Origin: a virus
Virus record (IMG/VR): IMGVR_UViG_3300020021_000116
Location: 1 to 22,997 of that record
Strand: one strand, 5' to 3'
Length of the DNA stretch: 22,997 bases
Part shown: one piece after another, positions 12,184 to 22,997 of the stretch
How positions within the stretch are numbered: the stretch's first letter is position 1
Layout: each line of letters starts with the position of its first letter
The notes under the pieces: model-generated
The model's database searches: none
Seen by the model: the letters and a program-made list of their open reading frames with translations, nothing else
What the model was told of the DNA's origin: nothing
Position numbers and translations under genes: made by a program

Positions 12184-13599
12184 TCATTTCCTCCGTTTCA
12201 TAGCCAAAAGTAGGGAATCTTGAGTATTGCGCTTGGCGATATGAGCCGCAATTACATCCTCATCAATGGTGTTTTCACAAATTATGTTATAAATCCATAC
12301 CGGGCGGTCGAATCCCGCCTGTAGCTGGCGCATTGGGCCTACCCGCTCTATCATCTGCATACGCTCACCAAGGTTCCAACTATGGCCGAAGAACGCGATG
12401 ATATTGGTTGCATACTGGAGGCCATCTATACCATGTCCAAGGGAGGCAGGGTGCGCCAGACCTATTGGCGCGTTTCCCGCGCGGAAGGCCTTCATGCCGG
12501 CCGGAGTGCTCAATTCTACCGCGCTGGGAAAGGCAGCCTTTATCCTGGCGAGGTCCGACTTGAAGCTATACGCCAGAAGGATTGGATTGCCGCCAGCCTC
12601 AGCCAGTACGGAGCGTACTGCCTCGATCTTCTCGTCATGAATGGGAGCCCAACTTGGGTAGTCGGTGTATACTGCGCCGTTGGCAAGTTGCAAACACTTG
12701 TTAGTCAATGACGCAGCATTGAAGACTTCTATGTTACCCAAATCGCCCAAATCGGCAAACAACTCGCGTTCAAGCTCTTTGTAAATCGCCCTGGCCTTGG
12801 GCGGCAATTTGACCATAATCGGAGCTACAATCGGCTCTTTCAGGTCGAAATAGTCCTTTGGATCGATGGTCAGGCAGCAATCGTGCAGCGCCGCATGAAT
12901 TTCCTTCTCGGCGTGGGGCATAGGCTCAACACCGTAGCCGCTCCATTTGGGCTTAAACCAACGCTGCATAAAAGCGCTGTGCGTGCGTCCTAGTCGGGCT
13001 CCTCGATCGATATACCATTGCTGGCCCCAGAGGTCCTTAAGGCCGTTAGGAGCCGGCGTGCCGGTCAGATTAACCCATCTATCGGTAAGATTGTGGGCCA
13101 CCATGCCGAGCGAATGGGCACGTTTGGCGGTTTTGCTGGTCTTCTTGGACTCAATGTCGACCCCTCCGCGCTTCTCGCGGAAACCTTTAAGCCGGTCGCT
13201 TTCATCTGCGACGACTTGGCGAAACGGCCATTTCTCCATGAAATGTTCGACAAGCCACGGTGTCAGTTCGTAGCTAATCGTGAAGATATCGGCCTTGCGC
13301 TTCAGAGCGTCTAGTCGCTCGCGCGGCGTGCCGGACAGAGAGACTATGCGTAAATCCTTGAACTGCGTCCACTTGGATACCTCCTCCGGCCACGTATCGC
13401 GCGCAACACGCGCAGGGCCTATGACGAGAGTTGGGGACGTGCCGATATCACCCATTAGTTTAAGCGTATCCAATGCGAATAACTCTGCAGAACTTTTCCC
13501 GATCCCCATGCCGGCCCACAGCGCGCAGCGTTTATGCTCAATCACCCAATCGACCATGGGTATCTGCGGAGGGCGGAGTATTAGATCCTTCACGCGCAC
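12184..13599 (-). CDS. SNF2/SF2-type DNA helicase/translocase (471 aa)
   Basis: A 471-residue two-RecA-domain ATPase of the SNF2-like group common in phage replication operons. Motif I GMGIGKS (residues 30-36) is the ATP-binding loop; motif II is VVADESD (D132-E133-S-D135) rather than DEAH; motif III is LTGTPAPN (178-185). The C-terminal domain has [10 protein letters not shown] (387-396, motif V) and [11 protein letters not shown] (415-425, motif VI, where many relatives have an R-x-G-Q ending). Motor proteins of this group move on duplex DNA or remodel forks and D-loops. Two in-frame GTG codons are possible starts: 13599, overlapping the methyltransferase end by 10 bases, and 13593, which has a better-spaced AGGG. 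Confidence 0.9.
12190..12194 (-). promoter_or_regulatory. Shine-Dalgarno GGAGG that decides the 78-aa start
   Basis: GGAGG read on the − strand at 12194-12190. It is 8 bases from the ATG at 12181 and only 2 bases from the ATG at 12187, which favours the shorter protein starting MAQTRLGS. Confidence 0.65.
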
Positions 13600-14488
13600 G
13601 CCCTGATGAAGACTTCGGCGTCTTGCGGAACAATTGCATTGCCGTAGCCCCGCAAGAGTCCCACACGGCCGGGTATCCCATGAGCCAGCGGGAATGTGCC
13701 GGGTTCAACTGGCCGCCACTTGCCGTCTCTGCATTCAATCCAATCAGCGGGCCTTCCGTCGAACCATGCGCATCGGGAAAGCCCCACTTGTTCGCTCGCG
13801 GACTGCTCCAACCCGCCAACTGCACCGCCGTCTGTAGGTTCTCCCCGCCCTTGCCGCGAGCCCCTGCGCCTGTATGATTGTTGGCTTTCGGTGAGGGCCA
13901 ACCTGCCAACTGCGCCGCGCCCGGCAGTTTCAGGTATCGCGGGCGCTGCGAGCCGTCCGTAGTTTTCTTCCCGTAGCAGTAAGTACTCCCGAGTTCGTCG
14001 TTTACGAGTGGAGTCGGCCACCCAGTACAGCCGCTGCCGGATGTGCGGTGCGCCGACGCTGTGTGCACCCACAATCGCCGCCCCGACGGCGTACTCTTCT
14101 GCTTCCAAGTCTCCTGATATAAGGTCGATCCAGGGCAGAGCGTTTGCAACCTGTTCCCCAAATATTCGCTCAGGGCGACACTCACGGATGAGATGCAAGA
14201 ACGCCGGCCATAGGTGCCGCTCGTCAGCAAACCCGCCGCCTTTGCCTGCCGTGCTGAAAGATTGGCACGGACAACTTCCCGTCCAGACGGCACGATCGTC
14301 GGGCCAGCCGGCGAGACGGAGGGCGTAGCTCCAACCGCCGATACCGGCGAAGAAATGGCATTGAGTATATCCCGCAAGATCGTTTGGCAGGATATCCTCA
14401 ATGCTACGCTCGTCAACATCTCCGTTTGCAATGTATCCGTTTCGGATAAGTTCTCGCAACCAAGTGGCAGCTTTTGGGTCGTTTTCAT
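13538..14488 (-). CDS. Nested +1-frame ORF inside the cytosine methyltransferase (316 aa), possible dual coding
   Basis: A 316-codon ORF in the +1 frame relative to the methyltransferase. Its ATG lies 16 bases inside that gene and its end runs 52 bases past it into the helicase gene. AAGG, from the first codons of the methyltransferase, lies about 9 bases upstream of this ATG. The product is Ser/Thr/Gly-rich and has a thrice-repeated motif, GWPTPLVND (156-164), [11 protein letters not shown] (194-204) and [11 protein letters not shown] (224-234), then a block [20 protein letters not shown] (261-280). I recall proteins with similar GWPTP repeats and L-N-P-x-x-x-x-W-L-M-G-x-P blocks in many phage annotations, which suggests the frame stays open elsewhere. 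It may still be only a compositional shadow of the methyltransferase. Confidence 0.3.
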
Positions 14489-14504
14489 TGTAATAAGCCT
14501 TCAT
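13590..14504 (-). CDS. C5-cytosine DNA methyltransferase (304 aa)
   Basis: A 304-residue phage DNA (cytosine-5) methyltransferase. Motifs in order: I FFAGIGG (51-57, SAM binding), IV SCPCQS with catalytic C80 (P79-C80-Q81), VI as G-E-Q-V (E117), where most enzymes have [16 protein letters not shown] (155-163), and [12 protein letters not shown] (285-293). The target-recognition region (about 165-265) is short and Arg/Gly-rich. The enzyme would methylate cytosine in a specific motif, protecting phage DNA or marking it. The N-terminal [20 protein letters not shown] is typical of a phage subgroup. It starts in an ATGA overlap with the HNH gene. A 316-codon ORF is open in the +1 frame across nearly the whole gene. 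Confidence 0.93.
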
Positions 14505-14845
14505 GCGCGTGCTTGCAGCGCAATGTTTTTATCCATTGCGCGCTGGTCCCGACGTTTAAGATTTTCTTCGCCAGTTACGGCTTCCAAGTGCGTTGGTTCA
14601 ATGCAGAGCGGATTGATGTAACAATGGTCAACCTGATAGCCTTCGGGTATTGGGCCGTTAAACACCTCATAACTGCAACGGTGCGCACGCACGGTTTTGT
14701 GCCGGCCGTTGACGCGAATATTTAGGCGGCCGTCTTCTCTGCCGCCCCGTCGTTTGGCGCGCTTGCCGGTCCATATGCGACATCCTGTTATGGGATCAAG
14801 AACGTTATTAGCTAGAAGACGAGCGGCTAGATTTGGATATCTCAT
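14501..14845 (-). CDS. HNH endonuclease (114 aa)
   Basis: A 114-residue HNH-family nuclease. The ATG at 14845 is chosen because it forms an ATGA overlap with the VRR-NUC stop; an upstream ATG at 14896 would overlap that gene by 55 bases. The sequence has G-C-R-I-W-T-G (21-27), a beta-hairpin with VRAHRCSYEVFNGPIPEGYQ (52-71), and the metal-finger core VDHCYINPLCIEPTHLE (72-88) with H74 and H86. The usual central Asn of the core is Glu (E83), and one of the usual zinc cysteines is displaced (C75 in place of the next position; C81 kept). Related enzymes nick or cut DNA in homing, packaging or restriction. It is coupled to the methyltransferase downstream by ATGA. Confidence 0.85.
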   Translation of the reverse strand: MRYPNLAARLLANNVLDPITGCRIWTGKRAKRRGGREDGRLNIRVNGRHKTVRAHRCSYEVFNGPIPEGYQVDHCYINPLCIEPTHLEAVTGEENLKRRDQRAMDKNIALQARA

Positions 14846-15225
14846 AGTGGGCGATTCTTGCACCCGTTGCAGTGGCCGCAACGTGCACATCTGCAATCAT
14901 CACCTTTATCACAAGAACAGCAATTATTTCTGCGTTCTTCATCAGTAAAGTCTGCTAGCGTGTGAAGAAACCTATCCACTTGCAGGCAACTGTATAAGGT
15001 TTCAACACGGAATCCCAAATCGCGCAGTGCGACATGGTATCGGTTTTGCCATGATTGCACATGGCCGTCAGCAGTTTTAGTCTCTACAAAAATGATCTTT
15101 CCGCCCGGCATTAGCACAGTGCGGTCAGGGAACCCTCGCCGGCCTTGATCTATGAGCTTTACGCATTTGCCGCCCTTGGCTTCAACGCCGGCTACAAGAT
15201 AGTTTTCTATTGAAGTCTCGTACAT
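14842..15225 (-). CDS. VRR-NUC nuclease with Cys-rich tail (127 aa)
   Basis: A 127-residue protein. The ATG at 15225 follows the polymerase stop by one base and has GGAAA upstream; an earlier ATG at 15279 would overlap the polymerase. Residues 1-90 are a VRR-NUC domain of the PD-(D/E)xK superfamily: Y-E-T-S-I-E-N-Y-L at 2-10, RRGFPDRTVL (D34), FVETK (E48, K50) and W59-Q60. Such stand-alone phage VRR-NUC proteins are Holliday-junction or branched-DNA nucleases. The last ~27 residues contain eight cysteines (102, 103, 105, 111, 113, 116, 119, 122) in CSCDKGDDCRCARCGHCNGC, an added metal-binding or redox module not part of the nuclease core. It sits between the polymerase and the HNH gene. Confidence 0.88.
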   Translation of the reverse strand: MYETSIENYLVAGVEAKGGKCVKLIDQGRRGFPDRTVLMPGGKIIFVETKTADGHVQSWQNRYHVALRDLGFRVETLYSCLQVDRFLHTLADFTDEERRNNCCSCDKGDDCRCARCGHCNGCKNRPL

Positions 15226-15226
15226 G

Positions 15227-17269
15227 CTATTTCCGGTATCGGTAAGTTTCAAAGCCTTTGGCGGCGAGAGGTAGTCCATTCGCCCACAACGAAGATCTCA
15301 CCAAAAGTCTGCTGAGCCCTTTGTCACTGTATTTATCCTCATCTGGCGGCTCTGTTAAGCCCTCATCGTGTACGGTTAAAATTGGATTATACCCTTCCTC
15401 GTCAGCCGCCTGCATACCATCCATGAGGATATCGACGCCCACGCCCTCAGCAATGTTCTGAGTGCGCTTGCCGCTATAGGTATCGATTCGCTTCCATTGC
15501 CTGGTATAAGGATCAACACCCATATACGAGCTGGTGTAATCATCGCCGCGCGGTGCCGGATAGCTTAGATATCGGCCGCTTGGTAGTCCGATCCTGAGCC
15601 AGTTGCCTTGTCGATCAACCGTAATGTGTTCACCGACCTTGTAAACCTTGCCCTTAACCTTCGTAGCCATCCGGCAAGCCGCGTCAAGCTGCGCCCAAAA
15701 GTTACAAATCGCAGGATGCGCGGCACGCCACATTAACACTAAGGAGTGGCAGACAACCCAAATTCGCTCTTCGAGGCCGTAATCTCTGTTGCGCTTCTTA
15801 GCCTTGAGCCAAGCGGCCTGCGCCTCATATTTAATGTCTGCGGGGATGACACCCCAAGCGGACTGCGCAAGTGCATCGAGACGCAGGCCATATGCTTCGG
15901 CCATCGAGCAGAAGGCGCCGACCCCACCGTAATACTGTAGGGCCAATTCCATGACCTTGCCGATTTGTCGCCGTGGATCTTCATCGCCTATCTCCTTAGC
16001 ATCGATATTAAACGCTCGCGCATAAGCGATCTTGTAAAGGTCGGGTCCTTCCTTTCGATCAAAGGCGGCAAAAGCATCAAGTTTCCAGCGCTCCCCCGCC
16101 ACCCACGCCACGATTCGTCCTTCGATATTCGCAAGGTCACTAACAATGAGCTTCCTACCGGGCGCGGAAACAATAAGGCCGCGCAATGAAGAACTAGCCA
16201 GCCCAAGAATTTCATCCGGCGCGTATTCAGCAATTGTTCCATCATGAAATCGGGTGATTGCATGGTCTATATCCCATTGCTGGTGCTTAGGGCGCGGAAG
16301 ATTCTGTGGCTGAAGAGTACGGCCAGCCCACCGGCCAGTACGAGCAGCCCCACAAAACACCAATAGATTACACAGACGGCCATCAACATTTTGATTAAGC
16401 ACCCGGCTATACTTTGCAGTGCTTGCCTTGCTAGCTTGCTGTCGGACACGAAGCAATTCTTTAATGTGCTCTGGGAGTGATTCATCTTCAAGTCTCCTCT
16501 CTACGGTGTCGGCAGTCAGGTCAGGCAAGTCTACGCCAAACTCTGACATATAGGCCAGCATTCTGTTTCGCTGCTGGGTTGTATCAACTTCGCCTTCTGT
16601 CAATTCTTGAGTGCGCGCAGCCATTTGCTTTTTGGCTTTGGTTGTCGCCTCAACAGCGCCGGCCGCCAGTTTCAAGTCCATTGCCACGCCGCGCGCATTC
16701 ATGCGCTGGTCAAGATGCCAAAAAGCCCACATGCGAGGCGTTGCGTTCCATTTAGGGCAATTCTTGTAGACGGCGCGCATTGATGTTATGTCGCTGCCTC
16801 CATACTTTAGGAACTCAGCCCACTGCTTAGGGTGCGAATGGCGATCGTTATAGGAGCCATCGTCCTTTGGCTTGCTAAAAAGAGCAATGCCCTCTTTGCC
16901 GGCCTTTAGCTTGGTCTCATCCTCTGGGATCTTGAATACTTCGCACAGTTTCGCAAGAGAACCCATTAGGCCGTGCATACGAGCCAAGGCGGCAGTACAG
17001 CGCCACTTTTCTAACGGTGCTGGCGGCCACCAATGCGTAGTTTCGACCATTGTGCGATCAAAACCGGCTTCGTGCGACCATACTTCATCGCAATTTTCAA
17101 CTGCTCGGATAAGCGCCTTCGACGGATGATGTGCAGTAAGGTCTTCTACGGTTACCGGACCGTCGTCTATGGCCCACTGCGCCATAATGACTTCGACTGT
17201 AAGCGCATACTTAACGTGTCCGAACCTGAAGTTTGGACCTCGCGTCTCACAGTCAAACCAGAGCTTCAT
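15227..17269 (-). CDS. Family A DNA polymerase with 3'-5' exonuclease (680 aa)
   Basis: A 680-residue replicative polymerase. An N-terminal 3'-5' exonuclease has FDCETRG (D6, E8), the SHEAGFDR segment (about 65-72) and YGGSDITS (D160). The polymerase domain carries motif A SDLANIEGR (D378, E383), motif B RRQIGKVMELALQYYGG (R433-R434, K438), and motif C LTVHDEG (H634-D635-E636). There is no 5'-nuclease domain, as expected for phage enzymes. The residue four after the motif-B Lys, equivalent to E. coli Pol I position 762, is Leu (L442). The gene overlaps the upstream methyltransferase by ATGA, and the VRR-NUC start follows its stop by one base. Confidence 0.96.
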   Translation of the reverse strand: MKLWFDCETRGPNFRFGHVKYALTVEVIMAQWAIDDGPVTVEDLTAHHPSKALIRAVENCDEVWSHEAGFDRTMVETTHWWPPAPLEKWRCTAALARMHGLMGSLAKLCEVFKIPEDETKLKAGKEGIALFSKPKDDGSYNDRHSHPKQWAEFLKYGGSDITSMRAVYKNCPKWNATPRMWAFWHLDQRMNARGVAMDLKLAAGAVEATTKAKKQMAARTQELTEGEVDTTQQRNRMLAYMSEFGVDLPDLTADTVERRLEDESLPEHIKELLRVRQQASKASTAKYSRVLNQNVDGRLCNLLVFCGAARTGRWAGRTLQPQNLPRPKHQQWDIDHAITRFHDGTIAEYAPDEILGLASSSLRGLIVSAPGRKLIVSDLANIEGRIVAWVAGERWKLDAFAAFDRKEGPDLYKIAYARAFNIDAKEIGDEDPRRQIGKVMELALQYYGGVGAFCSMAEAYGLRLDALAQSAWGVIPADIKYEAQAAWLKAKKRNRDYGLEERIWVVCHSLVLMWRAAHPAICNFWAQLDAACRMATKVKGKVYKVGEHITVDRQGNWLRIGLPSGRYLSYPAPRGDDYTSSYMGVDPYTRQWKRIDTYSGKRTQNIAEGVGVDILMDGMQAADEEGYNPILTVHDEGLTEPPDEDKYSDKGLSRLLVRSSLWANGLPLAAKGFETYRYRK

Positions 17270-17820
17270 CTGGCGTACTTAGCCCTTGCTTCAATCTCAT
17301 CCGGCCGCAGCTCGCGCGAAGGCATACCGCGAATGATGCGCTTGGGGCGCTCTAAGGCGATTACCCAAGGATATCGGTACTCAAGGAAATCCTTATATGG
17401 CGAGAGTGACGGGAATCCGTCGTGGCAATCTTCTATCAGATACACGCCTAATGTACGCGGCCAGAGGTTAAGAAACGTCTGCGCCTGGTGCTGACGGACA
17501 TGCGAACCGTCGTCAATAACGATATCGAAGGGTCCAAGCCGCGAAAGAACTGGGTCGCATTGATCGGCAATGACGACTTTTATCTGATCTTCCTCAAACT
17601 CTTTGCAGACAGGATTGATGTCAACGCCGATAATCTCAGCGTTGCTTCCAAAATAGGCTTTCCAGAGCTGCAGCGAGCCCCCGTGGTCGATTCCAATTTC
17701 CAGGATCTTGACTTTAGTGCCGCAATACTTGGCAAAGTGTTTTTCATAGATATCTAAGTAATGCGACCACTTATCAATCTGCTTTCCCTTATGGGCAAAA
17801 AACAAGTCGCTGACGGTCAT
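17266..17820 (-). CDS. SAM-dependent methyltransferase, MycE-like (184 aa)
   Basis: A 184-residue class I methyltransferase. Motif I is ILEIGIDHGGSLQLWKAYFG (39-58), then EIIGVDINP (62-70, acidic SAM ribose-binding residue D67), and FDIVIDDGSH (98-107), the metal-binding acidic pair of the Mg-dependent sugar O-methyltransferases such as MycE. A Y-L-I-E-D segment follows near residue 130, and PWVIALERPKRIIRGMPSRE lies near the C-terminus. It is short for that family and lacks the accessory N-terminal domain. The substrate is unknown; location between a small gene and the polymerase hints at phage DNA, RNA or a hypermodified base, but a host glycan is equally possible. Coupled to both neighbours by ATGA. 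Confidence 0.8.
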   Translation of the reverse strand: MTVSDLFFAHKGKQIDKWSHYLDIYEKHFAKYCGTKVKILEIGIDHGGSLQLWKAYFGSNAEIIGVDINPVCKEFEEDQIKVVIADQCDPVLSRLGPFDIVIDDGSHVRQHQAQTFLNLWPRTLGVYLIEDCHDGFPSLSPYKDFLEYRYPWVIALERPKRIIRGMPSRELRPDEIEARAKYAR

Positions 17821-18141: not shown

Positions 18142-18693
18142 TTAGGCAGCCAGGGGATCGTCGTCACCTACGGAGATTTCATCGAACTCGTCTGCATCAG
18201 CCGGCCGCGAGCCGCCCGCGAAGGCATCACCGTCGCGCAAGAACTGCACGCCGCGAAGCTGCGCATTGATTCGCTTACCAAAGCCGTTATCCTGAGGCCA
18301 CAGCTCCAGGCTGGCATTCACGTAGCACCCAGAATAGGGCTTACCGTCAGCTTCTGAAAGCTCTTGGCGTTGCTGATCGAAGATAGAAGGCCGCACCTTA
18401 GCGCGTGCGCTGACGTACAGATTACCTTCAAACCCTTCATAATCGGCCTTACCGTCACCTTTATGCAGACAGACCTTATCGGCCGCCTCAAGCGCCTTGA
18501 GCACAGCGTCCGCCTTGGCGCCCCACTTCTCTTTGGCGAGCGTCTTGAATGCGGCCTTAAGCTCAGAGATTTGCTTATGGGTTTCGGGGAGGAGAAACGA
18601 AGCGGAAAAGGCAGCTTCGCCGCCAGTCTTTGGCGCAGTTGCTTTCCACAGAGAGGGAAAGGCAAGTCGAACATCACGTAACAGTATTCGCAT
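18142..18693 (-). CDS. DUF2815 single-stranded DNA-binding-type protein (183 aa)
   Basis: A 183-residue protein of the DUF2815 family, phage ssDNA-binding/recombination proteins related in role to T7 gp2.5. Visible hallmarks: RDVRLAFPSLWKA at the N-terminus, FSASFLLPETHKQ (29-41), a helical region (43-70), H-K-G-D-G-K-A-D-Y-E-G-F-E-G at residues 77-90, VSARAKVRPSIFDQQ (93-107), GKPYSGCYVNASLEL (116-130), LRGVQFLRDGDAF (145-157), and an acidic tail (DADEFDEISVGDDD), typical of ssDNA-binding proteins that dock partners through the tail. AAGGA lies five bases before the ATG. It is followed by the terminator at 18086-18113, so it may be expressed more strongly than the genes beyond it. Confidence 0.85.
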   Translation of the reverse strand: MRILLRDVRLAFPSLWKATAPKTGGEAAFSASFLLPETHKQISELKAAFKTLAKEKWGAKADAVLKALEAADKVCLHKGDGKADYEGFEGNLYVSARAKVRPSIFDQQRQELSEADGKPYSGCYVNASLELWPQDNGFGKRINAQLRGVQFLRDGDAFAGGSRPADADEFDEISVGDDDPLAA

Positions 18694-18855: not shown

Positions 18856-19049
18856 CGTAGGCCAACCTTCCAGTAATCGAGATTCTTCATTCTGGCCCAT
18901 TCATAGGCCCGGCGTGCAGTGTCGAACTTCTTAGCCTCGTCCAACTCATCCGTTACCTCAACCAGCATACTCTTCAAATGTTGGTTGGTATAGACATAAA
19001 TCTCTTTACGCGAAACGGTATCAAATCCGAATATTACATATTTATTCAT
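18852..19049 (-). CDS. Small phage protein of unknown function (65 aa)
   Basis: A 65-residue protein in an ATGA overlap with the end of the DUF2800 nuclease gene. The start MNKYVIFGFDTVSRKEIYVY reads as a beta-hairpin, followed by two helices (LKSMLVEVTDELDEAKKF, then ARRAYEWARMKN) and a basic end. No motif or family recognised. Good coupling and amphipathic pattern make it very likely real. Confidence 0.68.
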   Translation of the reverse strand: MNKYVIFGFDTVSRKEIYVYTNQHLKSMLVEVTDELDEAKKFDTARRAYEWARMKNLDYWKVGLR

Positions 19050-20269
19050 GCGGTTAGGTCCTCTTCAAATTCAGATGCAGAAGCTGAGCCAGTAAAGGGC
19101 GTCCTCGTATCGGAGCCCAAGGACAATATCGGCTTGCCTTCCGCACGTTTGATGAGCGGCTTGAATATGTCCTCCCAAAGCTGCGCGGTTTTCTTCTTGT
19201 CCAGAAGTTTCCCGGCCTGGGGCGCTGTTATAATCTTGCGCGGTGCATAGACCTTTTCTGGCGGCAGTTGTCCAAGGAGCGCTGCCTCTGCTGTTGTCTC
19301 GTCCGACCATGCGCGTTTTCCTTCATCGCCTTGAACAAATTTGTACGGCAACCCGTCAGGGCCAATAACCTTCTCGCCGGCTGTCACAAGCCGCGAGACT
19401 TCCATATCGACAGCGTTGCACCAGTCGCGTATAAGCGGCACGGCTAGCTTGGCTTTGGCAAGCCTTATGGTATCGACAGGAGGCGTCGGCGTCGGCGTCG
19501 GCGTAGCGCCTGCCTCAATCGTCTCAAACTCACAGCGCACTTCATCTGCAACGAACTTGCTAAGCGCAGGACATACAGCCTTGGCTCGGCACCAACGGCA
19601 CTGCTTCTCGCCAGGCGATAGGAAGGCTGGATTTGGTTCAATAATCGCCTTGCCGGCATGTTCTACGGCTAGAGCCGCTTTGCGGCCGAAGTCCAGCAGT
19701 TCGTCCATAGTCCATGTGCATTCGTCAATGTGCCCAAGGCGGGGCTGACATATGACACCAGTTAATTTATCGACCGGATTGCCGAGCAATTGCATGTCTT
19801 GCAATGCGCCGAGCAGGTACAGCATGAGCTGTGAATTGTCTTTAGCAAAAACCTTCTCGCCGGTTCCGTACTTAAGATCCTCAACAGTCAAATGGCCGTC
19901 TTTGTAGATCAAAGCATCGGCCATACCGCCTTGATCGTCGCCCAATTCAGGTATCTTGATGCCGTATTCGACATACAGCGATCCACCGATAGCCCGGCGC
20001 CGAACGTCGTCTATGTAGACCTGGCAGAACGATGCGCGCGTTTCGTCCATTTCGTATAACTTGGTATTGATAGTCTTGAAAGAACCTAGGAATAGTTCTG
20101 CGTCTTTGCCAGAGGTCAAGGACAAGGCGGACCACTCATGACTAGCCGTCCCATCATCGGCAAATATGCTAGATCCGCCTTCCGTCTGATTCTCAGGGAA
20201 AGCCATCGAGCCGGGGCATGGTATCCAGCGCGCCGAGCTGGAGGGAGAAAAGAATGAATGGTTGCTCAT
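19046..20269 (-). CDS. DUF2800 Cas4/RecB-like nuclease (407 aa)
   Basis: A 407-residue protein of the DUF2800 family, PD-(D/E)xK exonucleases of the Cas4/RecB type. Elements: SSSARWIPCPGS (10-21), GTASHEW (H44), QGGMADALIYKD (D118), LTVEDLKYGTG (E130, D131, K133) and a long helix with NSQLMLYLLGALQ. A cysteine set C18, C224, C227 and C233 (C-R-W-C-R-A-K-A-V-C) fits the four-Cys iron-sulphur site of Cas4/AddB relatives. A linker near residues 255-265 is (TP)n. Such phage nucleases sit beside DUF2815 ssDNA-binding proteins and probably process recombination ends. AGGAAG lies ten bases before the ATG, which overlaps the upstream stop by ATGA. Confidence 0.9.
   Translation of the reverse strand: MSNHSFFSPSSSARWIPCPGSMAFPENQTEGGSSIFADDGTASHEWSALSLTSGKDAELFLGSFKTINTKLYEMDETRASFCQVYIDDVRRRAIGGSLYVEYGIKIPELGDDQGGMADALIYKDGHLTVEDLKYGTGEKVFAKDNSQLMLYLLGALQDMQLLGNPVDKLTGVICQPRLGHIDECTWTMDELLDFGRKAALAVEHAGKAIIEPNPAFLSPGEKQCRWCRAKAVCPALSKFVADEVRCEFETIEAGATPTPTPTPPVDTIRLAKAKLAVPLIRDWCNAVDMEVSRLVTAGEKVIGPDGLPYKFVQGDEGKRAWSDETTAEAALLGQLPPEKVYAPRKIITAPQAGKLLDKKKTAQLWEDIFKPLIKRAEGKPILSLGSDTRTPFTGSASASEFEEDLTA
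19482..19505. repeat. Hexanucleotide repeat (GGCGTC)x3 + GGCGTA coding (Pro-Thr)n
   Basis: Four tandem GGCGTC-type units on the + strand encode, on the − strand, the T-P-T-P-T-P linker of the DUF2800 nuclease between its iron-sulphur region and its C-terminal helical part. Such short repeats can vary in length by slippage without breaking the frame, changing the linker by two residues per unit. Confidence 0.85.
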
Positions 20270-21114: not shown

Positions 21115-22997
21115 TTAAGAACTCAAGTCAACGCTATTCCCTGAAATTTGCTCAATTATTTCTTTACCTGTTGCAGTAGCCCATCGCTCATGATTTTTTA
21201 AAGTGATGGCGCGGTATATAGAAGCACCAATATGAAATTGCGTTTGCCGGCCGTTAAACGGTGCGCGACATAGCATTCTACCTATGCGCTTATCAGTCGG
21301 TTTTGAAATACTGTGCTTACGAGCATAGTCCGCAACCTCGTTAACTAGCACCACCTCGTGATTCAGCGGTCCTATGTTCTGCTCTAAAGCTGTCTGCAAT
21401 AACTCATAATCAGGACTAATTGATGATTCGATCATCTCTTTACGAGCTGCTGTCTCTGGCGCCCTGGCATCTGGCGAGAAGCCCACTATTGATACGCCTA
21501 GGAAGTAATGTCTTAAGACCGGAGCAGCTCTCGGAGTCAATAGAAAATCGTGATATATCCATTTGACTTCTTTGGGCGTCATTGTCGGAGCGTGCAGCTC
21601 GTGAATTGCCCATTTACGATCATTATTATCGATTGCGGCGGCGTCTTCCTTATTGCTGCTGCCCGTGACGAATAGATGGTTAGGTGCCGTGTAGCCGCGC
21701 AAGCCCTTGGGCGCCATAGATAGAGTGTCGTCCGATATCCAATCTTCTACCTTTTTGCTGATTGCTTCCCGCTCGCCTCGCGTCCCTGCCCTGAACTCTT
21801 TCAAATTTACGTGCCATGCTCCTATAAGGTAGTCATTAAAATCGCTATTTAACAAGGAAGACGTAACATCTTGCGAATAGTGATTTCCCACCAGCAACGC
21901 AGGGATTGTCTTTATTAGTGTTGTCTTGCCGCTACCTTGCGTCTCAGACCAAATGAGCGGCGCTGAACGGATCTTAACGCCGGGTTTTTGCACAACGTGC
22001 GCCAAAAACTTAGTGTAATAGTCGCGAAATACCGAATCGTCGATGCGATCAAACACCCAGTTTATTTTCTCTAGTTCTAATGCAGTAGGCTCAATCGGTG
22101 TGGGCAATTGGTTGCGGTAGAGATTGGCGTATTGCCCTAGTTTATCGTCGAATATTGCATCTTCACCGGGGTGAAACGCCAGTGAGTCCACAATGCGTTT
22201 GGATGTACTGCCTTTAAGAACTTTGACTGGATTTAAGCGTCCTGTCTTGACGCGCGGCATCATGGACGTGAATAAATGCTCAATGGCATTATCACTGCCA
22301 ATAATCGTGTGGTGCTCCGTATCGAAATAGCGCTCTGCGCCGCGCACGAAGACTAATCGTTTTTCGAGTATCTCAATACTTGCTTGATGCTTCGCGCGGA
22401 CTGCGGCTTTAAGCTCGTCCTCCGTAGTCTCCCCTACCGCCTCTGCAGACTCGATAGGGAACTCATCGGCATCCGCCGGCAGTTCAGCAACTAGCGCCTG
22501 GCCCGATGCCACATGCTTACCAGGACCACTAGAGAAGGATAGCCAATGCGTCTTAAGCAGCGCATCTCCTGGATAGGGTTTGCGCTTTATTCCTTTCGAC
22601 CATTGGCACCAAATCTCAAAGCCTTCTTGAGCGCCGCCGGTCCCATCATTAAGCTGCATCCCGACTTTCAGCCATTCATCATATTCGCAATTCGGATCAT
22701 GCTTAAATGCTGCGCGCTTAAGCTTGCTAAGGTCAATAGAGGGGCGCGGCGCAGTCGGCGGCAAAGATTCTACTTCTGAATCTTCGGCCGTCAGGCTGCG
22801 CCAAACCGCCAGCAGTCCAGCAGGGATTGAGGGCAGATTGGACCAATGGCCTATCATCGGTTCTGGATATAACCAGCAGTACGGCTTTTTGGTATCTGGA
22901 TGAATGCTTGGCGGCAAGACATCCTGAACCGAATCGCCTTGAGCGGTAGCGCAGCGTAGTTCAAGGCCGCTGCCTTTAGGTTTAAATGTGCGAAGCG
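21115..22997 (-). CDS. Primase-polymerase/SF3-type helicase (5' end cut off by the right edge)
   Basis: At least 626 residues are visible; the frame stays open to the last base, so the start lies outside. The upstream part (GSGLELRCATAQGD, then DVLPPSIHP around 22900) is the C-terminal end of a bifunctional primase-polymerase domain. Next comes a PriCT-2-type domain (LKRAAFKHDPNCEYDEWLKV to LKTHWLSFSSGPGKH). The helicase part has Walker A SETQGSGKTT (about 21920-21950), a Walker B-like WHVNLKEF, and a sensor segment GSSNKEDAAAIDNNDRKWA. This D5/SF3-like combination makes primers and unwinds DNA at phage origins. A TTG at 22917 that could be mistaken for a start lies inside the primase domain. 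It is the first gene of the operon within the window. Confidence 0.9.
   Translation of the reverse strand, partial: LRTFKPKGSGLELRCATAQGDSVQDVLPPSIHPDTKKPYCWLYPEPMIGHWSNLPSIPAGLLAVWRSLTAEDSEVESLPPTAPRPSIDLSKLKRAAFKHDPNCEYDEWLKVGMQLNDGTGGAQEGFEIWCQWSKGIKRKPYPGDALLKTHWLSFSSGPGKHVASGQALVAELPADADEFPIESAEAVGETTEDELKAAVRAKHQASIEILEKRLVFVRGAERYFDTEHHTIIGSDNAIEHLFTSMMPRVKTGRLNPVKVLKGSTSKRIVDSLAFHPGEDAIFDDKLGQYANLYRNQLPTPIEPTALELEKINWVFDRIDDSVFRDYYTKFLAHVVQKPGVKIRSAPLIWSETQGSGKTTLIKTIPALLVGNHYSQDVTSSLLNSDFNDYLIGAWHVNLKEFRAGTRGEREAISKKVEDWISDDTLSMAPKGLRGYTAPNHLFVTGSSNKEDAAAIDNNDRKWAIHELHAPTMTPKEVKWIYHDFLLTPRAAPVLRHYFLGVSIVGFSPDARAPETAARKEMIESSISPDYELLQTALEQNIGPLNHEVVLVNEVADYARKHSISKPTDKRIGRMLCRAPFNGRQTQFHIGASIYRAITLKNHERWATATGKEIIEQISGNSVDLSS

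Follow-up and report, generated by a model that had tools for sequence, protein, structure and literature searches.

Can a 316-codon open reading frame (ORF) that lies in the +1 frame of a phage cytosine-C5 methyltransferase, on the same strand, be a gene in its own right, and if so, what does it encode? The question is raised by IMG/VR virus record IMGVR_UViG_3300020021_000116, of which positions 1 to 22,997 form the window analysed here (22,997 nucleotides; all coordinates are those of the window, and all features located in it by coordinates lie on the minus strand). The frame-0 ORF, referred to as alpha (13590..14504, 304 amino acids), was identified as the catalytic polypeptide of the methyltransferase by its matches to PF00145 (E 5.5e-14, residues 74-163 only) and PHROG 363 (E 4.2e-77). 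The +1-frame ORF, beta (13538..14488, 316 amino acids), opens with an ATG 16 nucleotides within the alpha ORF and ends 52 nucleotides beyond the alpha stop, and about 200 codons of the overlap are doubly read; beta matches PHROG 1008 (E 1.8e-21), a family that is itself labelled ‘DNA methyltransferase’. The coordinates, offset and overhang of beta, together with an upstream AAGG and three repeats in its product, had been described in an earlier note made from the sequence alone, and they were recovered unchanged when the sequence was re-read.

We conclude that the 316-codon ORF is almost certainly a gene, and we consider it highly probable that a single DNA segment encodes here, in two frames of one strand, both halves of a two-subunit phage cytosine-C5 methyltransferase. 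Both frames are conserved and under selection, motif IX is missing from alpha, and the half of single-chain enzymes that holds the recognition region and motif IX is homologous to beta. In the arrangement that we propose, alpha would contribute the S-adenosylmethionine-binding and catalytic domain (motifs I and IV-VIII) and the closing motif X, and beta would contribute a domain of about 80 residues, (G)W-P-T-P repeats that vary in number and take the target-recognition position, and motif IX. The two chains, both of them needed, would associate into one enzyme in which the repeats may carry DNA specificity; beta would be initiated independently, and the enzyme would methylate phage DNA, probably as a defence against host restriction.

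The +1 frame is kept open and under selection

The earlier note had supposed that the +1 frame is held open in other genomes, and had named frequent +1 stops in homologues as grounds for abandoning the idea of a gene. In 1000 synonymous-codon shuffles of the window alpha, the +1 run reached a mean of 108 and a maximum of 289 codons, compared with the 302 observed. Among 64 non-redundant homologues picked by the alpha protein alone, the median +1 run was 290 codons versus 148 after shuffling, and 35 of the 64 were individually significant at p<=0.01; the +2 frame had no excess (0/64). Alpha and beta overlap, always in the +1 relationship, in 240 of 240 loci (80 viral loci chosen on alpha, 80 viral loci chosen on beta and 80 bacterial-genome loci chosen on beta), and no stand-alone beta without alpha was found in the 80 genome and 80 viral loci chosen on beta. 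The shuffles and the loci thus go against the proposed refutation and bear out the supposition that the frame is maintained.

The note had also called for synonymous-site suppression and two-frame rates, and we estimated both. For the former, third positions of four-fold codons that code for the same alpha residue were compared in 3552 homologue pairs. These positions differed in about 0.6 of comparisons over alpha codons 1-80, in 0.07-0.3 over most of codons 81-286, and in 0.48-0.68 from codon 291 onward. The suppressed sites track beta-invariant residues codon by codon, each falling on the second base of a codon for a conserved beta residue (S78, L106, L110, L114, S121, L123, W128, K129, P134, T143, S150, P160, W197, F237, G259-P273 and W276). 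At this resolution, synonymous sites of alpha are saturated up to codon 81, almost frozen from codon 82 to 287 wherever beta is conserved, and free beyond that. Rates computed in the manner of OLGenie gave a beta dNN/dNS of 1.11 (0.87-1.44) over codons 2-80, 0.59 (0.44-0.76) over codons 83-165, 0.43 (0.33-0.55) in the repeats and 0.43 (0.25-0.57) around motif IX. In the repeats, which lie between motifs VIII and IX, alpha has a dNN/dSN of 0.89 (0.73-1.05) and a dNS/dSS of 1.37 (0.94-2.24), that is, no purifying selection; beta is therefore the constrained frame there, and alpha the passenger. Overlapping genes are recognized by purifying selection that acts on each of the two frames; such selection was found, and that on the +1 frame goes beyond what the methyltransferase accounts for.

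These results were used to reject the alternative that the +1 ORF is a non-coding shadow which GC-richness and the repeats of the target-recognition region keep open, to which we now attach next to no probability. Shuffled sequences do themselves yield longish +1 runs, both for the window and for the family (about 148 codons), and length is a weak argument in a single genome; but synonymous change in alpha is frozen at precisely the positions of conserved beta residues, it is beta and not alpha that is constrained in the repeats, every locus keeps both frames, and the motif IX that the enzyme needs occurs only in the +1 frame. Between the two alternatives that the earlier note had set side by side, a dual-coding gene and a repeat shadow, the contrast within the repeats (0.43 for beta, 0.89 for alpha) supports the first and tells against the second.

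Alpha is without motif IX and beta carries it

The alpha frame holds motif I (FAGIGGW, 14331..14351), motif IV with the catalytic Cys (SCPCQSF, 14256..14276), motif VI (GEQV, the ENV equivalent, 14148..14159), motif VIII (14013..14048) and motif X (GYGNAIVPQ, 13623..13649), those of IV and VI being placed by alignment to M.HhaI. With I, IV-VIII and X present and IX absent, the statement of the earlier note that the methyltransferase has all its catalytic motifs was wrong: the C-terminal block that it had seen in the +1 frame is motif IX. By the features that define PF00145, alpha has I, IV (PCQ), VI, VIII and X, and neither motif IX nor a recognition domain is part of its chain. Across 160 alpha-chosen loci, motif IX was never found in frame 0 and was found in the +1 frame in 140, using a strict regular expression. 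Canonical Dcm is the opposite, with motif IX in frame 0 in 22 of 27 sequences and in the +1 frame in none. The AlphaFold model of alpha resembles the large domain of M.HhaI, and its residues 191-235 and 275-286, where the recognition domain and motif IX should lie, are predicted with a predicted local distance difference test (pLDDT) score below 50.

The functional part of beta, residues ~77-285 (13634..14260), coincides with the region in which alpha synonymous sites are suppressed. Its consensus begins with a conserved domain of about 80 residues lying over alpha motifs IV-VIII (SLSARQAK...GSTLYxLTWKxRxTPSGRxIxALRASAxRTS), which is followed by one to five W-P-T-P-type motifs (no repeat was matched in 5/122) and then by the motif-IX block. 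In the window, the repeats are WPTP (14009..14020), WPSP (13889..13900) and WSSP (13799..13810), and motif IX lies at 13661..13708, conserved in alignment A1 and homologous to the in-frame motif IX of single-chain enzymes. The bases of alpha motif VIII also open the first WPTP of beta, and the repeat DNA beyond this motif gives V-A-D-S when translated in alpha and W-P-T-P when translated in beta.

Relatives with the two halves in one chain or in tandem genes

Homologues in which both halves can be recognized without overlap bear on the identity of beta. In Mycobacterium phage Hamulus gp68, one of the single-chain actinophage enzymes, a single frame reads motif VIII, five LLPTPxxxD repeats, PRLTAAFPEWMMGWPAGWVT (motif IX) and IIGNGV (motif X); residues 67-190 of this protein are matched by the alpha profile with a probability of 97%, and residues 302-446 by the beta profile (probability 91%, E 1.3e-6). 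Like the present pair, gp68 comprises a catalytic half, repeats, a motif-IX block and motif X, but it does so in one polypeptide, without an overlapping frame. Mycobacterium phage MeeZee gp78/gp77 has the same two halves as successive genes, with motif X on the second. Since motif IX never occurs in frame 0, the single-chain enzymes have this order and MeeZee has the halves as tandem genes, beta is most likely the recognition region and motif IX, that is, the predicted missing half of the enzyme, rather than a regulator. The earlier note had suggested a second product that might regulate or accompany the methyltransferase; the notion of an accompanying product is thereby sharpened, and that of a regulator is not upheld.

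A related alternative is that beta is a genuine overlapping gene whose product is a separate accessory protein (a regulator, inhibitor or partner) and not a part of the enzyme. Selection on two frames is compatible with this, as the place of beta in an active enzyme is a prediction. In every homologue checked, however, alpha is without motif IX and an ordered recognition region, beta carries exactly those, and single-chain relatives have both halves in one polypeptide; we therefore regard an accessory role as improbable.

Several points weigh against the two-subunit reading. The two-chain enzyme, its activity and the beta protein are predictions from sequence. At the sequence level, the beta profile finds no 5-methylcytosine methyltransferase, whether in Pfam, in the PDB or in E. 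coli Dcm, so the assignment of motif IX draws on its position and on the relatives with single-chain or tandem layouts, and not on Dcm; searches with beta (the single sequence and 91 members) against Pfam, and also against NCBIfam and PDB sequences, returned nothing meaningful. An AlphaFold model of beta alone has low confidence (pLDDT 61) and no PDB match, although poor prediction might be expected of an isolated half-domain and would then neither help nor hurt. Beta residues 1-76 are unconstrained, and for this reason the start of beta is uncertain and the ATG at 14488 is only a candidate. Lastly, the homologue pairs used for the rates are not phylogenetically independent, and canonical Dcm has a dNN/dNS of 0.67 in its non-coding +1 frame, which makes the ratio alone a weak test; the weight is therefore carried by synonymous suppression, which canonical Dcm does not have (SN 0.815, saturated), and by the contrast between regions. 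A comparison of the beta model by Foldseek and VIA gave common folds only (Z<5) and was not used.

Other members of the family depart from these layouts. In Mycobacterium phage Papez gp46 (stretch positions 1309-2136), the alpha frame includes motifs IX and X, as in a single chain, and the +1 frame after motif VIII still reads SSLLPTPLARDSKGT; gp46 is possibly an intermediate or a relic of frame displacement. A methyltransferase locus on IMG/VR contig 3300028914_000358 has motif IX-like blocks in both frames, 0 and +1, and its recognition region may have been duplicated or be recombining. In Propionibacterium phage B22 gp50 (stretch positions 1-1419), the methyltransferase reads VYDLTVERDHSFIAAGIVVHN-CQDLSMAGRR; the residues immediately preceding the motif IV catalytic Cys resemble the C-terminal junction of an intein, which suggests an intein inserted at the active site.

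Candidate starts of beta

Conservation of beta sets in only at residue ~77 (14260), and more than one codon could serve as its start. The candidate ATG at 14486..14488 has an AAGG ending 9 nucleotides upstream, and an ATG at 14419 and a GTG at 14293 are further candidates. Of 62 non-redundant loci, all 62 retain an ATG that follows the last beta-frame stop and precedes the conserved domain (65% in shuffles), and a Shine-Dalgarno-like motif is present in 68% (31% in shuffles); beta-frame stops after alpha codon 45 occur in 3% as against 22% in shuffles. Taken together, the ATG retention, the rarity of stops and the Shine-Dalgarno excess favour independent initiation of beta from its own start codon over frameshifting.

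Production of beta by a +1 ribosomal frameshift from alpha near codon 80, giving an alpha-beta fusion without a start codon of its own, would fit the abrupt onset of beta selection at alpha codon 82, the freedom of the residues before it, and the lack of any ATG in the window between 14419 and the conserved domain. We nonetheless hold it to be very unlikely: besides the retained start codons, rare stops and stronger Shine-Dalgarno signal, joining the frames at codon 80 would repeat motif I and leave out motifs VI-VIII.

Comparison with known split methyltransferases

Methyltransferases divided between two polypeptides have precedents, and the small subunit of M.EcoHK31I (YGGCCR) is reported to be encoded within the gene for the large one, in a different frame. 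The present locus resembles that enzyme in that alpha has motifs I-VIII and X without IX, and IX lies on a second, overlapping polypeptide. In M.EcoHK31I, the large subunit holds motifs I-VIII, X and the predicted recognition domain, and only motif IX is on the small subunit, whereas in M.AquI the split falls before IX-X and both of these motifs are on the small subunit (PMC3404938). Unlike the large polypeptide of M.EcoHK31I, alpha is unconstrained where the recognition domain should be, and beta carries this region; beta is also longer than the M.EcoHK31I small subunit, with the extra conserved domain over motifs IV-VIII and the W-P-T-P repeats. By analogy, then, the locus may work like M.EcoHK31I, yet we do not file it as a strict member because the constrained recognition region lies in beta, which sets it apart from the published description.

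M.AquI (CYCGRG) is likewise a cytosine-C5 methyltransferase split between motifs VIII and IX, but here motif X is on alpha rather than with IX on the small polypeptide, and the genes are nested. The M.AquI layout does occur within the present family, in MeeZee gp78/gp77 and in Gordonia phage GordTnk2 gp28/gp29, where motif VIII is the last in alpha and the +1 frame supplies the LLPTP region together with IX and X. In GordTnk2, part of this +1-frame region is upstream of the annotated gp29 start.

Distribution and annotation

Annotated phage records include 201 matches to beta and 386 to alpha, and a broader alpha scan of viral contigs found at least 591 relatives. The same nested +1 block is present in distant alpha relatives from Paenibacillus, Lacticaseibacillus, Mycobacterium (Zerg), Microbacterium, Vibrio and Acinetobacter phages. 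The coliphages CarlMeissner and ChristineMuster_Bas80, from the BASEL collection, have the pair as well. Judged by these matches, the nested architecture appears to recur in hundreds of phages, including phages of Bacillota and Actinomycetota, and to be mostly missed by annotation.

Deposited records differ: some annotate just alpha, some just beta (Vibrio phage 1.236.O, PMG1), and some the two together (K1ind2, Gryphonian). In Escherichia phage K1ind2, the nested pair is deposited as genes for a ‘C-specific methylase’ and an ‘Mte8-like protein’, and in Paenibacillus phage Gryphonian as paired coding sequences, with the submitters' remark that the inner gene was called by no program. These two records treat the pair as unrelated or duplicate genes, and no statement that they form one shared enzyme was found in them. 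The deposited gene of Vibrio phage 1.236.O is the beta frame (‘hypothetical protein’), and its catalytic alpha frame is without annotation. In Pseudomonas phage PMG1 (stretch positions 1999-2890), only beta is annotated as a methyltransferase, and the alpha frame has two stops near the N-terminus, for which a later start, a sequencing error or decay are possible explanations. A literature search, with most subscription papers outside its reach, found no prior report of nested methyltransferases as a general phage feature.

Genomic context

The pair is located within a phage replication block, with an HNH endonuclease, a VRR-NUC protein and DNA polymerase on one side and an SNF2-type helicase on the other. 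The upstream HNH gene (14501..14896; Pfam HNH_3, E 1.2e-10) has a TGA that overlaps the alpha ATG (ATGA), an overlap that suggests translational coupling of the two. The downstream helicase gene (12184..13599; PHROG 62, E 7.5e-126) overlaps the ends of both alpha and beta. Further replication and recombination genes nearby encode a Gp2.5-like single-strand binding/annealing protein (18142-18693), an exonuclease (19046-20269) and a DNA primase (21115-22917), and a second methyltransferase-like ORF lies at 17266-17820 (PHROG 21658, E 2.4e-17).

Implications

As read from its sequence, the locus would be a dual-coding gene for both halves of a methyltransferase, of a kind that is known but rarely noticed, and the placement of the recognition region in beta would distinguish it from M.EcoHK31I as published. 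A long same-strand overlap with many homologues allows the constraint on each frame to be measured region by region, and the single-chain and tandem-gene relatives offer a way to trace how the overlap arose. In most cases annotation calls a single frame, and a cloned ‘methyltransferase’ would then be without its recognition half, which would touch methylome assignment and studies of anti-restriction.

A wider proposal, for which we see the balance as about even, is that these loci represent an ancient class of cytosine methyltransferases, very large and found in phages of Pseudomonadota, Bacillota and Actinomycetota, in which the recognition half is encoded in the +1 frame of the catalytic half and the W-P-T-P repeats are variable recognition modules. 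If this is true, most annotated ‘DNA methyltransferase’ genes in such phages would be half-enzymes, inactive when cloned as annotated, and an enzyme spread over two frames of one gene would pass from a textbook curiosity to a widespread phage gene architecture.
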